In this document: one piece after another, positions 24,055 through 28,757 of the stretch
Numbering within the stretch: position 1 is the first letter of the stretch
Layout of the letters: every line of letters starts with the position of its first letter
Source: Vulcanimicrobiota bacterium
GTDB lineage: Bacteria > Vulcanimicrobiota > Vulcanimicrobiia > Vulcanimicrobiales > Vulcanimicrobiaceae
Direction: 5' to 3'
Assembly: GCA_027307235.1 (NCBI GenBank)
Contig: DAHUXH010000002.1
Location: 18,706 to 82,705 of the forward strand
Length of the DNA: 64,000 bases
Translations under genes and position numbers: made by a program
The notes under the pieces: model-generated
Seen by the model: the letters and a program-made list of their open reading frames with translations, nothing else
Told to the model about the DNA's origin: nothing
The model's database searches: none

Positions 24055-25086
24055 ATGCTGCTGCTCGGCATCGAGACCTCGTGCGACGACACCGCGACGG
24101 CCGTCGTCCGTGACGGCCGCGACGTGCTCGCCAACGTATCCACCAATCAGGACGAGTTTCACGCAAAATACGGAGGCATCGTTCCGGAGATCGCGAGCCG
24201 CCAGCATGTCGCCTTGCTCTCGGCGGCGATCGACGATGCGCTCTCGCGAGCGAACGTGTCGCTGCGCGAGATCGACGGCATCGCCGTCACGCGCGGTCCC
24301 GGCTTGATCGGCAGCCTGCTCGTCGGCGTCGCGACCGCGAAGGCGCTCGCCTACGCTGTGCGGACGCCGCTCTACGGCATCAATCATCTGCACGGGCACA
24401 TCTTCTCCGCGTTTCTCGACCGGCCGGAAACGCCGCCGTATCCGTTTCTCGCGCTGCTCGTCTCGGGCGGACATTCGCAACTCGTCAGCGTAGCGTCGGC
24501 GACCTCGATGCGCATCCTCGGACGCACGCACGACGACGCCGCGGGCGAGGCGTACGACAAGACCGCGCGCTTGTTGGGCCTCGGATATCCCGGCGGACCC
24601 GCGCTCGACGCTCTCGCGCGCACGGGCAATCCGAAAGCCTACGCATTTCCGCGCCATCGCCCGCCTGCCGGAAGCCTCGACCTCTCGTTTTCCGGCTTGA
24701 AGACGTCGGTGCGCTACTTTCTCGAATCCGATGAAGGCGGCGCAGCACCGGTTGAAGATGTTGCAGCATCGTTTCAGGCGGCCGTCGTCGATGTGCTGAT
24801 CGCCCGTGTCAACGCGGCCTTCGATCTCGCACACTACAACGCAGTCGTGCTCTCCGGTGGTGTCGCTGCGAATTCCGGCTTGCAGACAGCGCTGCGCGCA
24901 TGGTGCGAACGGCGCGGCGTGTGTTCATTCATCCCGCCGCCCAAGTACTGCACCGATAACGCGGCGATGACCGCCGCTGCCGCCTTCTACCAAGGTGCGT
25001 CGGCACGCATCGATCCGTTCAGCGCGAGTGCCGACCCGGATCTCTCGTTCGAACGATCATTCAACGACGTGCCGGCCGGCTCTTGA
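24055..25086 (+). CDS. tsaD: tRNA N6-adenosine threonylcarbamoyltransferase TsaD
   Basis: TsaD transfers threonylcarbamoyl to A37 of ANN-decoding tRNAs. The ATG at 24055 begins the conserved LGIETSCDDTA motif; an upstream ATG would add 26 unconserved residues overlapping the MFS gene. HLHGHIF holds the metal-binding His pair, and VSGGHSQLV and VVLSGGVAANSGL are ASKHA nucleotide-binding motifs. At 343 residues it has normal length. The promoter of the methionine leader overlaps its stop codon. Confidence 0.95.
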   Translation: MLLLGIETSCDDTATAVVRDGRDVLANVSTNQDEFHAKYGGIVPEIASRQHVALLSAAIDDALSRANVSLREIDGIAVTRGPGLIGSLLVGVATAKALAYAVRTPLYGINHLHGHIFSAFLDRPETPPYPFLALLVSGGHSQLVSVASATSMRILGRTHDDAAGEAYDKTARLLGLGYPGGPALDALARTGNPKAYAFPRHRPPAGSLDLSFSGLKTSVRYFLESDEGGAAPVEDVAASFQAAVVDVLIARVNAAFDLAHYNAVVLSGGVAANSGLQTALRAWCERRGVCSFIPPPKYCTDNAAMTAAAAFYQGASARIDPFSASADPDLSFERSFNDVPAGS

Positions 25087-25112
25087 CGCCGCCCGCGTTT
25101 GCGTGCTAGGCT
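25083..25112 (+). promoter_or_regulatory. Sigma-70-like promoter for the hom-metY-metX leader
   Basis: TTGACG (25083-25088) and TAGGCT (25107-25112) are separated by 18 bp, and TG one base before the -10 gives an extended -10. The leader ATG begins nine bases after the -10, so the transcript would have at most a few bases before the start codon. The same -10 hexamer TAGGCT precedes ribBA. Confidence 0.55.
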
Positions 25113-25121
25113 TCGCGAACG

Positions 25122-25211
25122 ATGTTCGTTGACCGTGCGCCGATGATGTGTTCCATGTGCCGCTGTATGCAGATGCCTACGGCGCGGATCGTCGTGCGAA
25201 GCCGAAACTAG
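25122..25211 (+). CDS. Met/Cys-rich leader peptide of the methionine operon
   Basis: A 29-codon ORF ending in TAG. Residues 8-18 read MMCSMCRCMQM: five Met and three Cys in eleven positions, a density not expected by chance in this genome. It lies between a plausible promoter and a strong hairpin, 104 bp before hom, the first gene of a methionine pathway operon. It fits a ribosome-stalling attenuator that senses charged tRNA-Met and tRNA-Cys, like the Trp and His leaders or the leaderless Cys-rich leaders of mycobacteria. No good Shine-Dalgarno site precedes it. The function is inferred, not shown. Confidence 0.7.
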   Translation: MFVDRAPMMCSMCRCMQMPTARIVVRSRN

Positions 25212-25238
25212 CGAACGTTTCACAACCGGAATAGCTTC

Positions 25239-25277
25239 ACACACGAGCCCCCGCCGAGATAGCGGGGGCTCGTGTGT
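25239..25277 (+). terminator. Attenuator-type hairpin before hom
   Basis: ACACGAGCCCCCGC-type 5' arm pairs perfectly over 16 bp (25239-25254 with 25262-25277) around a 7-nt loop, then TTTCCTCG follows. The U-tract is short but the stem is very stable. GAAGC (25198-25202) and CGTG (25193-25196), at the end of the leader ORF, can pair with GCTTC (25234-25238) and CACG (25242-25245), which would break the base of the hairpin. This is the geometry of an antiterminator. Confidence 0.7.
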
Positions 25278-25314
25278 TTCCTCGCTTTCCCATCGCAACA
25301 GGAGGCCTGGAAGA

Positions 25315-26460
25315 ATGAATGTGACCGTCGGTATCGGTCTACTCGGTTGCGGCACGGTTGGTGCCGCGGTGGCGCAACGTCTGCTCCATGATCGCGACGC
25401 GATCGAACGCGGCAGCGGCGTGCGCTACACCGTGCGCGCCATCGCCGTCGAGCACACCGGCAAACCCCGCCCATGCGACATCGACGCATCGCTGTTCACC
25501 GGCGACGCGCGCGCGGTGATCGACGATCCAAGCGTCGATCTGATCGTCGAATGTATCGGCGCGACGGTGGAAACCGCTGAGTTGATCGAACGCGCGCTCG
25601 AACGCGGGCGCCACGTCGTCACCGCCAACAAGGACTTGATCGCCAACCAAGGGCCGCGCTTGTTCGCGCTTGCGCGGGTGCGAGGCGTCACGCTTGCGTG
25701 CGAAGCGGCCGCGTGCGGCGCGGTTCCCGTCGTGCGTACGATCTGCGACGCGCTCGCCGGTGACGAGATCCATGCCATCGCGGGGGTCCTCAACGGCACG
25801 TGCACGTCGATCCTCTCCTCGATGGAACAGGGAAACAGCTACGCGCATGCCCTGGCTGACGCGCAACTCCGCGGATTTGCGGAATCCAATCCGGCAAGCG
25901 ACGTCGAAGGCGCCGATGCGGCGCACAAGCTCGCGCTGCTCGTGCAACTCGGATTCGGACTCGCCGTCGTGTCGCCGCGCATCCGCCGTTCCGGGATTAC
26001 GCGCATCACGCAGTCCGATATCGCGCGAGCAACAATACTCGGCTACCGGTTACGTTTGGTCGCGGCCGCGTCGCGGTCGCCCCACGGAGCGTTCGCAGAG
26101 GTGGCTCCGGTCTTGGTGGCACGCGATCATCCCTTCGCGCGCACGACCGGCGCGGAGAACGCCGTGCTCGTGCGTGCGCGTGACGCCGGCTGCATACTCC
26201 TGGGCGGGCTCGGCGCCGGCGGCGCAGCGAGCGCATCTGCCGTGATCGGCGACGTCATCTCGGCGTTGCGCGCGATCGCGTCGCGCAGTGCTGTCAACGC
26301 CGCTCGGGTGCGCTTAGAACCGGCGATCGACGTTTCACCGTTCTTCCACACGTTCACGCGCCATGCGGACTTCCCACGCTACCCGCAGTGGGACGACACT
26401 TGCCTCGAAGCTCCGGCCTCGCAAGCATCGCTTGCGTTCGCATGGCCGGGAAAGGACTAG
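25315..26460 (+). CDS. hom: Homoserine dehydrogenase
   Basis: NAD(P)-dependent reduction of aspartate semialdehyde to homoserine, the branch point to Thr and Met. The Rossmann motif GLLGCGTVGAAV opens the protein, ATANKDLIA-like VVTANKDLIA and GVLNGTCTSILSSME are catalytic-domain motifs, and SDVEGADAAHKLALL holds the conserved Lys/Asp region. At 381 residues it ends after the catalytic domain and lacks the C-terminal ACT regulatory domain. A GGAGG site lies 9 bp upstream. It is first in the hom-metY-metX operon behind the leader ORF. Confidence 0.93.
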   Translation: MNVTVGIGLLGCGTVGAAVAQRLLHDRDAIERGSGVRYTVRAIAVEHTGKPRPCDIDASLFTGDARAVIDDPSVDLIVECIGATVETAELIERALERGRHVVTANKDLIANQGPRLFALARVRGVTLACEAAACGAVPVVRTICDALAGDEIHAIAGVLNGTCTSILSSMEQGNSYAHALADAQLRGFAESNPASDVEGADAAHKLALLVQLGFGLAVVSPRIRRSGITRITQSDIARATILGYRLRLVAAASRSPHGAFAEVAPVLVARDHPFARTTGAENAVLVRARDAGCILLGGLGAGGAASASAVIGDVISALRAIASRSAVNAARVRLEPAIDVSPFFHTFTRHADFPRYPQWDDTCLEAPASQASLAFAWPGKD

Positions 26461-26466
26461 ATCATC

Positions 26467-27762
26467 GTGAGCAGCACCGTCGACCATACTCCCGCGCAAC
26501 ACTTCGATACGATCGCGATTCACGGCGGGCATTCGGGTGACCCGGCCACCAATGCCCGCGCCGTCCCGATCTATCAGACGACGTCGTATCTTTTCAACGA
26601 TACCGGTCACGCCGCTCGCCTGTTCGCACTCGAAGAGTTCGGAAACATCTACACACGTATCAACAATCCGACGACCGACGTCTTCGAACAGCGCATCGCC
26701 GCGCTGGAAGGGGGAGCCGGTGCGCTTGCGGTGGCGAGTGGTCAAGCCGCAGTCGTGTACTCGCTGCTCACGCTCGCGCGCAGCGGCGATCACATCGTCA
26801 GTTCGGCGTCGCTGTACGGCGGAACGTACAATGCGTTGCAGCACACGCTGCCGCGTTTAGGCATCACCGCGTCGCTCGTCGACATCGGCGATTTCAATGC
26901 GGTCGAAGCGGCGATCCAGCCGAACACCAAGGCGATTTTCGCCGAGACCATCGGGAATCCGAAGATCGACGTGCTCGACGTGCGCGGACTCGCCGACCTG
27001 GCTCATCGCCACGGCCTTCCGCTCATCGTCGACAACACGCTCGCGACGCCGTACTTGTTGCGGCCGATCGAATGGGGCGCCGACGTCGTGGTTCACTCGG
27101 CCACGAAGTTCATCGGCGGACACGGCACCGCGATCGGCGGTGCGATCGTCGACGGCGGAACCTTCGATTGGGCGGCAAGCCCGCGCTTCGCCGAATTCAC
27201 CGAGCCCGATCCCTCGTACCACGGCCTGAACTATGCAGCGACCTTCGGAAACATCGCCTACATCATCAAAGCACGTGTTCAGTTGCTGCGCGACGTCGGC
27301 GCCGCACTCTCGCCGTTCAATGCCTGGCTTCTGTTGCAAGGGTTGGAGACGCTCGGATTGCGGGTCGAACGGCATTCCTCGAACGCGCAGCGCATCGCCG
27401 AATTTCTCGCCGGCCATCCGCGCGTCGAGTCGGTCGCATATCCGGGTCTGCCCGGCGACCCGGCACACGCGCGTGCCCAGCGCTATCTTCCCAAAGGCTC
27501 GGGAGCGATTCTCACCTTCCGCGTGCCGGGCGGTGAGGTCGCGGCCAGAAGCATCGTCGATCGTCTGAAGCTCTTCTCTCTGCTTGCAAACGTCGGCGAT
27601 GCCAAGTCGCTGGTGATTCATCCCGCAACGACGACGCACCAACAACTCACCGACGAGGAACGGTTGCGCAGCGGCATCGACGCATCGACGATCCGTCTGT
27701 CCGTCGGCATCGAGGACGTGCAGGACTTGCTCGCGGATCTCGCACAAGCCCTGGAGGCATGA
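26467..27762 (+). CDS. metY: O-acetylhomoserine sulfhydrylase
   Basis: PLP enzyme of the Cys/Met metabolism family that makes homocysteine from O-acetylhomoserine and sulphide. Starts with GTG, six bases after hom. The PLP Lys is in HSATKFIGGHG; YTRINNPTTDVFEQRIAALEGG and SGQAAVVYSLLTLA are the substrate and cofactor motifs. Its 431 residues match the MetY type rather than the shorter MetB/MetZ forms. The stop overlaps metX (ATGA). Confidence 0.94.
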   Translation: MSSTVDHTPAQHFDTIAIHGGHSGDPATNARAVPIYQTTSYLFNDTGHAARLFALEEFGNIYTRINNPTTDVFEQRIAALEGGAGALAVASGQAAVVYSLLTLARSGDHIVSSASLYGGTYNALQHTLPRLGITASLVDIGDFNAVEAAIQPNTKAIFAETIGNPKIDVLDVRGLADLAHRHGLPLIVDNTLATPYLLRPIEWGADVVVHSATKFIGGHGTAIGGAIVDGGTFDWAASPRFAEFTEPDPSYHGLNYAATFGNIAYIIKARVQLLRDVGAALSPFNAWLLLQGLETLGLRVERHSSNAQRIAEFLAGHPRVESVAYPGLPGDPAHARAQRYLPKGSGAILTFRVPGGEVAARSIVDRLKLFSLLANVGDAKSLVIHPATTTHQQLTDEERLRSGIDASTIRLSVGIEDVQDLLADLAQALEA

Positions 27763-28757
27763 TCGAACGCATCATCGAGATCGGTCCACTTTCGCTTGAG
27801 TGCGGCGCGCATCTCGAGCACGTCAGCCAGTGCGTGACGATCTACGGCGACCTCGACGCACGCCGCGACGACGTCGTGTTCGTCGCGCACGGGCTGACCG
27901 GATCGTCGCGCCCGGGTGAATGGTGGAGCGGCATCGTCGGCCCCGCCAAAGCCATCGACACGTCGGCGCGGTGCGTCATCGGCATCAACGTGCTCGGCAG
28001 TTGTTACGGTTCGACCGGTCCGACCTCGCTCGGACCGGACGGCCTCCCCTACGGGCAGCGATTTCCGCGCATCAGCGTGCGCGACATCGCTGCGGCGCTC
28101 GCCGCCGCCTTGCGCGCGATCGGCGTCGAGCGCGTTCATCTCGCCATCGGCGGCTCGCTCGGGGGTATGCAGGTGCTGCAGTTGGCGCTCGACCATCCGG
28201 GGCTCGTCGAACATGCGGTGATGGTCGGTGCGCACGATCATCATTCAGCGTTTGGAATTGCACTCAACGCGCTCCAGCGCGATGCGCTCGCGCTCGATCC
28301 GAAAGATGGCTTGCGGTTAGCGCGCAAGATCGCCATGCTCAGTTACAAGAGCGACGGTCTCTTTCGCGTTCGGCACGATCGCAAGGCCGATCGCGGCGGC
28401 CGGCCGATCTTCGACGTTGAGGGCTATCTCGATCACCAAGCCGACCTGTTCGAGCAGCGCATGGATGCGGCCACCTACGCGACGCTCACGCACGCGATGG
28501 ATTCCTTCGATGTTCGCGATCACGCCGCCCAACCGGATTCGACCCGGTTCACGTTCGTCGGCATCACCTCGGATTGGCTATTCTTGCCACAAGACGTTGA
28601 AGCCGCGGCGCTGCGTTTCCAGCGCCGCGGCTTCAATGCCGCATACCGAGCGTTCGCGAGCGATCACGGCCACGACGCGTTCTTGGCCGAGTCGAACGCA
28701 CTCGCAGCCGCGATCGCCGACGCGATCGCTACAGCGGAACCGACGCTGCCGGTATGA
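27759..28757 (+). CDS. metX: Homoserine O-acetyltransferase
   Basis: Alpha/beta-hydrolase-fold acyltransferase that activates homoserine with acetyl-CoA for MetY. The nucleophile elbow is IGGSLGGMQ, and SDWLF and DHGHDAFL carry the expected Asp and His. NVLGSCYGSTGP is the oxyanion region typical of the acetyl-type enzyme. 332 residues. The last 29 bases overlap the 3' end of the convergent zinc-protease gene. Confidence 0.94.
   Translation: MIERIIEIGPLSLECGAHLEHVSQCVTIYGDLDARRDDVVFVAHGLTGSSRPGEWWSGIVGPAKAIDTSARCVIGINVLGSCYGSTGPTSLGPDGLPYGQRFPRISVRDIAAALAAALRAIGVERVHLAIGGSLGGMQVLQLALDHPGLVEHAVMVGAHDHHSAFGIALNALQRDALALDPKDGLRLARKIAMLSYKSDGLFRVRHDRKADRGGRPIFDVEGYLDHQADLFEQRMDAATYATLTHAMDSFDVRDHAAQPDSTRFTFVGITSDWLFLPQDVEAAALRFQRRGFNAAYRAFASDHGHDAFLAESNALAAAIADAIATAEPTLPV

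Follow-up and report, generated by a model that had tools for sequence, protein, structure and literature searches.

Between tsaD and hom, the window (the whole stretch of 64,000 nucleotides analysed here) most likely carries a ribosome-mediated attenuator that would control transcription of the hom-metY-metX operon in response to the amounts of charged tRNA-Met and tRNA-Cys. Sensing of Cys is less certain than sensing of Met. The leader ORF, its codons, the hairpins that its RNA can form and the conservation of all of these were read directly from the DNA of the window and its relatives, and the positions of the features are listed in Table 1.

Table 1. Features of the tsaD-hom gap and of the operon that follows it (window positions).
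Feature	Position	Strand	Remarks
Promoter-like pair TTGACG (25083-25088), 18-nt spacer, TAGGCT (25107-25112)	25083..25112	+	Checked base by base
Predicted leaderless leader-peptide ORF, 29 codons, MFVDRAPMMCSMCRCMQMPTARIVVRSRN	25122..25211	+	ATG 25122, TAG 25209-25211
Predicted sensing codons, 5 Met and 3 Cys within 11 codons	25143..25175	+	Residues 8-18 = MMCSMCRCMQM
P1 hairpin GCUGUA/UACGGC within the sensing codons	25162..25183	+	By eye; the script chose another stem
Segment 2, 5' strand of predicted antiterminator, end of ORF	25180..25202	+	
Segment 3, 3' strand of predicted antiterminator, GCTTC box and 5' arm of terminator hairpin	25234..25253	+	
Predicted terminator hairpin, 16 bp, 7-nt loop	25239..25277	+	Arms 25239-25254 / 25262-25277; poor U-tract
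Conserved post-terminator element CGCTTTCCCATC...AGGAGG, including the hom ribosome-binding site	25283..25306	+	May fold as a weak hairpin
hom, homoserine dehydrogenase	25315..26460	+	Start 3' of AGGAGG
metY, O-acetylhomoserine/O-acetylserine sulfhydrylase	26467..27762	+	TIGR01326, 661 bits vs cut-off 495
metX, homoserine O-acetyltransferase (MetX-like acyltransferase)	27759..28757	+	Best model PRK00175, below its cut-off

The tsaD-hom gap comprises 232 bases, in which the promoter-like pair, the 29-codon ORF, the 16-bp hairpin and the ribosome-binding site of hom follow one another. A first-pass annotation of this DNA had described the hexamer pair, the cluster of Met and Cys in the ORF and the perfect hairpin, and all three were confirmed. 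The leader holds eight Met and Cys residues per 11, while the next best ATG-initiated ORF of the window (15-60 aa) reached five, as did the best of 30 first-order resampled windows. By its thresholds, a generic scan of the window called neither a promoter nor a terminator at the leader, because the -10 hexamer is weak (TAGGCT matches TATAAT at 3/6 positions) and the tail of the hairpin is only UUCCUCGC. The leader promoter reaches back into tsaD, its -35 hexamer sharing bases with the stop codon of that gene (25083-25086).

Enzymes of the MetY family are makers of homocysteine and cysteine. The genome of the window also carries cysK and a second sulfhydrylase, and, at L133 (G000:C16:34500-38200), a pair of closely spaced genes resembling cystathionine beta-synthase and cystathionine gamma-synthase/lyase, all of these being models matched to partial reading frames. 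Since the latter two genes are present, homocysteine could feed cysteine. The close homologues of Hom were labelled Vulcanimicrobiaceae, Tumulicola, Aquilonibacter, Baltobacteraceae, Cybelea and Eremiobacteraeota, with a few labelled Acidoferrales or Verrucomicrobiae; by these names and the taxonomy, the lineage is Vulcanimicrobiia-like.

Hom was searched for in 60 relatives (32 matched) and then in 117 genomes of the class at E<=1e-60, where it was found in 72 genomes, with 80 matches among the matches listed. The upstream DNA was read for 72 of these 80 (L001-L072), and a short Met/Cys-rich ORF preceded hom at 37 of the 72 loci. The window's own family supplied 35 of these leaders, and another family of the class the other two, L019 and L025; examples are MFATTTAMMCSMCRMQMRTAWVVMESTV (L004), MFTRPTTMICPMCGMQEACGGDRRA (L002) and MISFASRMSTCCSAKRATARLPFAMT (L010). 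Among the 35 hom loci lacking a Met/Cys leader, four (L018, L027, L047 and L063) had too little upstream DNA, nine had a Thr/Ile-rich ORF instead and L028 had a weaker one, two had a clean gap (below), and the rest showed no leader by the thresholds used.

The leader was also found away from hom. A covariance model (R1) was built from 20 leaders and run on the 117 genomes of the class; leaders without hom were located before metY-metX in three g20 genomes and one g30 genome, and before a cystathionine gamma-synthase (CGS)-like gene in G001. At 14 further places upstream of metY, 11 Met/Cys ORFs were detected at the same threshold (L149 weakly) and one, L155, was recognized by eye below it; L156 had no Met/Cys ORF and L157 was masked. 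Altogether 17 leaders belong to metY or CGS operons, and their occurrence without hom indicates that the leader follows sulphur amino-acid genes. The resulting catalogue comprises 48 leaders with 47 distinct peptides from 20 genera; L050-L057, eight g24 copies that are almost identical, and the repeated contig L124 were not entered. Each contains two to six Met beyond the start and one to four Cys, and none is without Cys, counts that are not free of selection since the candidates were first chosen by Met+Cys >=4 (L155 excepted). The same cut-off would, however, also have admitted an ORF having four Met but lacking Cys.

Leaders were counted only if they matched R1 at E<=1.1e-8 or were read by eye, because false matches of R1 appeared in many genomes at about E 6e-8 to 3e-4, a second match in the window's own genome (G000:C18) included. 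Those that were read, L108, L109, L111-L118 and L125, share one common coding sequence. The sequence responsible is DNA antisense to the start of ileS, as checked with a model in L111 only. L126 was rejected as lying in another coding frame. When R1 was run on 149 genomes of the phylum, 36 had a match at E<=1e-6, all in the window's order; the sole match outside the window's family, G040, was among the false ones, and the leaders L019 and L025 of the other family were missed at this threshold.

In two relatives, L035 (G071) and L043 (G104), both with hom-metX operons, the promoter and CTCGCTTTCCCATC...AGGAGG are kept, while the ORF and the hairpins are absent, leaving a clean gap. The promoter thus adjoins the post-terminator element without the cassette, which points to a promoter serving hom. 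The same loci bear on the possibility that the hairpin is an ordinary tsaD terminator and the ORF a product of chance. The generic scan, with neither promoter nor terminator by its thresholds, would suit that explanation, but the leader is conserved across 20 genera and stands before metY and CGS operons as well, and the promoter was retained in these two relatives without the hairpin, so that we find it scarcely credible.

The position of the promoter relative to the ORF is nearly fixed. The distance from TTGAC to the ATG was 36 nt in 20 hom leaders, 37 nt in 13 and 39 nt in two, the window included (35 of 36 leaders), and TTGAC lay 35-38 nt before the ATG in all 12 metY leaders. The one exception, L019, has AAGGA before its ATG instead. 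This near-fixed spacing suggests that transcription starts at about the ATG, and the leader ORF is therefore probably translated leaderless.

The codons of the leader are held in frame. In 38 leaders (26 hom, 12 metY), ATG occurred at 144/722 positions in frame versus 12/684 and 2/684 in the other two frames. TGY occurred at 80/722 positions in frame, 95/684 in frame +1 and 29/684 in frame +2; it is frequent in frame +1 because ATG followed by a pyrimidine yields TGY by itself. As in-frame TGY does not exceed frame +1, Cys is supported by its persistence and not by a frame bias. Across 20 aligned leaders the frame was identical at columns 44 and 53 (20/20) and nearly so at column 72 (19/20), and it split 15/4/1 at column 82, where the RNA motif stays conserved. 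An early fixed and a late split frame is as expected if the codons matter first and the RNA afterwards. This pattern also bears on the idea that the ORF works through nascent-peptide arrest, or encodes a Met/Cys-rich micropeptide with a function of its own (binding metals, for instance), and is not a codon sensor. Metals can indeed be bound by Met/Cys-rich peptides, but Met and Cys differ in order and spacing among the leaders, no single frame is held through the C-terminal part, and the leader follows sulphur amino-acid operons with an antiterminator coming after it, which makes a role of the peptide itself very improbable.

The absence of a frame bias for TGY would agree with an attenuator that reads Met alone, its Cys codons merely riding along or tuning the pace of the ribosome. 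Met also makes up 16.8% of the residues of the 48 leaders and Cys 8.7%, and the core of the nine leaders of genus g36 has a mean of 4.8 Met and 1 Cys. On the other hand, at least one Cys is kept in 48/48 leaders, a g24 leader has a single core Met and a tandem Cys 15-18 nt before segment 2, and two g9 leaders read MMMCCC and MMMMCC. We therefore regard sensing of Met alone as possible but rather unlikely.

The number of Cys appears to vary with the operon. Genus g36 has hom-metX operons, with CGS next in line at each locus long enough to show it, and against the low core Cys of its leaders stands an average of 2.3 Cys by genus in metY-operon leaders. Genus means of Cys by operon type were 2.3 versus 1.6 (one-sided p=0.02), in a post hoc comparison that ignores relatedness and scores the truncated g18 contigs L122 and L123 and the unclear L008 as lacking metY. 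CGS takes cysteine as its sulphur donor. Fewer Cys in the absence of metY would fit this use of cysteine, as a trend only. In seven g9 genomes (G111, G112, G114, G117-G120) the two operons have different leaders, hom a Thr/Ile leader, such as MPALCVIMTTTITTTTTLGEGRSGSTSA (L061), and metY a Met/Cys leader, such as MNRRSLAMMMCCCSPRGTV (L137). The Thr/Ile-rich leaders before hom in genera g9/g19 (L020, L059-L062, L064-L067) are thrL-like and are followed by a GC-rich hairpin.

The RNA structures were compared in the same leaders. A perfect hairpin of at least 7 bp was mapped in 34/34 hom leaders (the picks for L019 and L025 were corrected by hand), with tails ranging from UUCC in the window, where the scan was negative, to UUUUUU in L002, and RNAalifold recovered the predicted terminator hairpin with both-side changes from 26 leaders. 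The box of segment 3 is often GCTTC across the leaders. The end of the ORF had been proposed to pair with the base of the hairpin, and segments 2 and 3 of the window can indeed form 18 pairs at -23.6 kcal/mol, with 3/200 dinucleotide shuffles as good. In this test, where a leader passed if 10/200 or fewer shuffles were as good, 27 of the 34 mapped hom leaders were included, omitting seven near-copies (L031, L051, L053-L057). The antiterminator was better than the shuffles in 19/27 hom leaders (mean z -2.8) and 8/12 metY leaders (mean z -2.9), and no better at this threshold in 8/27 and 4/12, respectively. When the partner strand was swapped in from 26 relatives, at least one was as good in 21/27 leaders and none in 6/27 (6/26 as good in the window, 22/26 in L042); swapped partners perform as well because the antiterminator motif is common to the relatives.

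The relatives also carry a stem at the position of P1, which ends at most 4 nt from segment 2 in 23/27 leaders and overlaps it by a few bases at most. In alignment A2 (20 leaders), 79% of the cells of P1 and the antiterminator pair; shuffles gave 73.9%, and slid structures reached 55% at most. The structure was drawn from the same sequences, so that the slide control flatters the percentage. The covariation score was 0.195 versus 0.135 in shuffles and at most 0.121 when slid. Both-side changes, with 19 cells and 10 pairs, stood above the shuffles (8.1 and 6.1; cells: 0/500 shuffles) but were not clearly separated from slid structures, which reached 17 cells and 12 pairs. Taken at the level of the relatives, the Met/Cys codons and both helices are largely kept (37/72 hom loci, 17 metY/CGS leaders, and an antiterminator better than shuffles in 27/39 leaders tested), and the comparison supports the first-pass reading of the segment as a probable Met/Cys attenuator.

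The leaders were also folded in a model in which a ribosome masks part of the RNA. With the ribosome at a Met/Cys codon, a mean of 91% of the antiterminator pairs formed, a figure that omits the last two Met/Cys codons of each leader; in the window, each of the eight Met/Cys stall codons left 12-18 of the 18 pairs. With the ribosome at the stop codon no antiterminator pairs formed, largely as a result of the masking itself. In the absence of a ribosome 43% of the pairs formed on average, from 0/18 in the window up to all in others and more than half in 12/27. With these no-ribosome folds mixed across the 27 leaders, the notion that an untranslated leader is always ON was rejected. The full-length leader RNA alone folded with the terminator in 26/27 leaders including the window, L014 being the exception.

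SAM riboswitches, T-boxes or repressors are the usual agents of methionine control in bacteria. At the gathering score, Rfam models matched in the window only six tRNAs, located elsewhere, and nothing at 20 leader loci, T-box included; at E<=10 only five microRNA models matched in the leader, far below their gathering scores. The SAM-I covariance model matched in 0/117 genomes of the class, with filters that lose some weak matches (the control matched in 3/14 genomes). These results weigh on whether the segment is a metabolite riboswitch or a protein site with an incidental short ORF. The conserved CTCGCTTTCCCATC-AGGAGG 3' of the terminator, kept where the leader is lost, is what one might expect of such a site, but at curated thresholds the leader matches no Rfam family, SAM-I was not found in the 117 genomes of the class, the stretch from the ORF stop to the GCTTC box is variable in sequence and length, and the ATG codons are biased to one frame. 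We consider a riboswitch or protein site highly improbable. The post-terminator element itself occurs only once in the genome when up to three mismatches are allowed, and it may fold over the ribosome-binding site of hom.

From the codons, the structures and their conservation we infer translation of the attenuator leader, its start site, termination and the amino-acid response. Transcription would start no more than a few bases from the ATG, and the leader would be read without a Shine-Dalgarno sequence. When Met and Cys are ample, the ribosome would reach the stop codon and cover segment 2, and the hairpin would terminate transcription 5' of hom. A shortage of Met or Cys would hold the ribosome within codons 8-18; segment 2, left uncovered, could then pair with segment 3, taking up the 5' arm of the terminator and allowing readthrough into hom. 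Stalling would thus free segment 2 and completion hide it, which is the logic of classical attenuation. A fuller model, on which we are evenly divided, is that of a two-amino-acid sulphur sensor, in which one leaderless peptide would gauge Met and Cys and set homocysteine synthesis through the terminator and antiterminator as a stand-in for SAM-I. The sensing codons would then follow the pathway, being Met/Cys on hom-metY-metX, Thr/Ile on the g9 hom with its own leader, and poorer in Cys on the cysteine-using hom-metX-CGS than on the sulphide-using operons.

The trp, his, thr and ilv attenuators share with this leader a short ORF rich in codons of the pathway, an antiterminator competing with a terminator hairpin, and a position before a biosynthetic operon. 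In contrast to them, the leader here would sense Met, which is also the initiator, together with Cys, is predicted to be leaderless, and has a P1 that abuts segment 2 without fully covering it. The published accounts of those attenuators that we found do not, in their accessible parts, name the phylum of the window. By its anatomy the leader would be an attenuator, one that departs from known ones in its amino acids, its predicted leaderless start and its lineage, and this placement is well supported by comparison.

The nearest precedent is metL of Streptomyces lividans, a leaderless 29-residue leader before metNIQ that is called methionine-dependent (PMC8079986). Its end, RCMCRRMCAF, mixes Cys and Met as here; according to the accessible text, however, it lies before a Met importer, has no clear terminator and is known from one species, and the paper remarks on Met and Thr (PMC8079986). 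In the present case the leader precedes biosynthetic operons, with a terminator hairpin and an antiterminator, in 20 genera. Cys-rich leaderless leaders in mycobacteria, mentioned as known by the first-pass annotation, are in print as polycysteine ORFs acting as Cys attenuators (Canestrari 2020 as cited in PMC9031893), and actinobacterial candidate Cys leaders without clear terminators have also been listed (PMC1262725). As described in the available portions of these sources, the mycobacterial ORFs share the leaderless start, the Cys codons and attenuation of a sulphur operon (PMC9031893, PMC1262725); they differ in having Cys only, in preceding cys operons and in the lack of a conserved terminator hairpin in the 2005 analysis (PMC1262725). 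The part of that analysis available to us reports no conserved RNA structure upstream of actinobacterial methionine operons (PMC1262725).

Two further motifs are related in part. The uORFC-8-2 motif of Rhodobacterales, a tandem-Cys uORF before cysS, shares Cys codons, two stems and a U-run consistent with an intrinsic terminator, and differs, by the sections at hand, in having Cys only, a tRNA synthetase gene and an alphaproteobacterial host (PMC8632094). The fthC uORF motif of Streptococcus is proposed to read methionine status, but through the initiator tRNA and the rate of initiation and not through elongation at Met codons, as far as the accessible text goes (PMC11109978). The accessible parts of PMC2965389 and PMC13236596 do not mention a Met leader peptide. 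In the open-access literature searched, with subscription papers mostly outside, no Met/Cys attenuator upstream of hom, metY or metX operons came up. The claim that a dual Met/Cys attenuator would be new thus stands for methionine biosynthesis operons within this literature and has to be narrowed where the accessible texts already describe a leaderless Met leader (PMC8079986) and Cys leaders (PMC1262725, PMC8632094).

In a phylum that has been little studied, an attenuator reading Met codons together with Cys would bring an unusual pair of amino acids into attenuation. As Met is also the initiator, starvation could cut initiation as well as elongation. The behaviour of the untranslated leader matters in this respect, as Met starvation may also reduce initiation. 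The natural variants, Met-rich, Cys-rich, Thr/Ile or with the leader lost, make the sensing rule testable.
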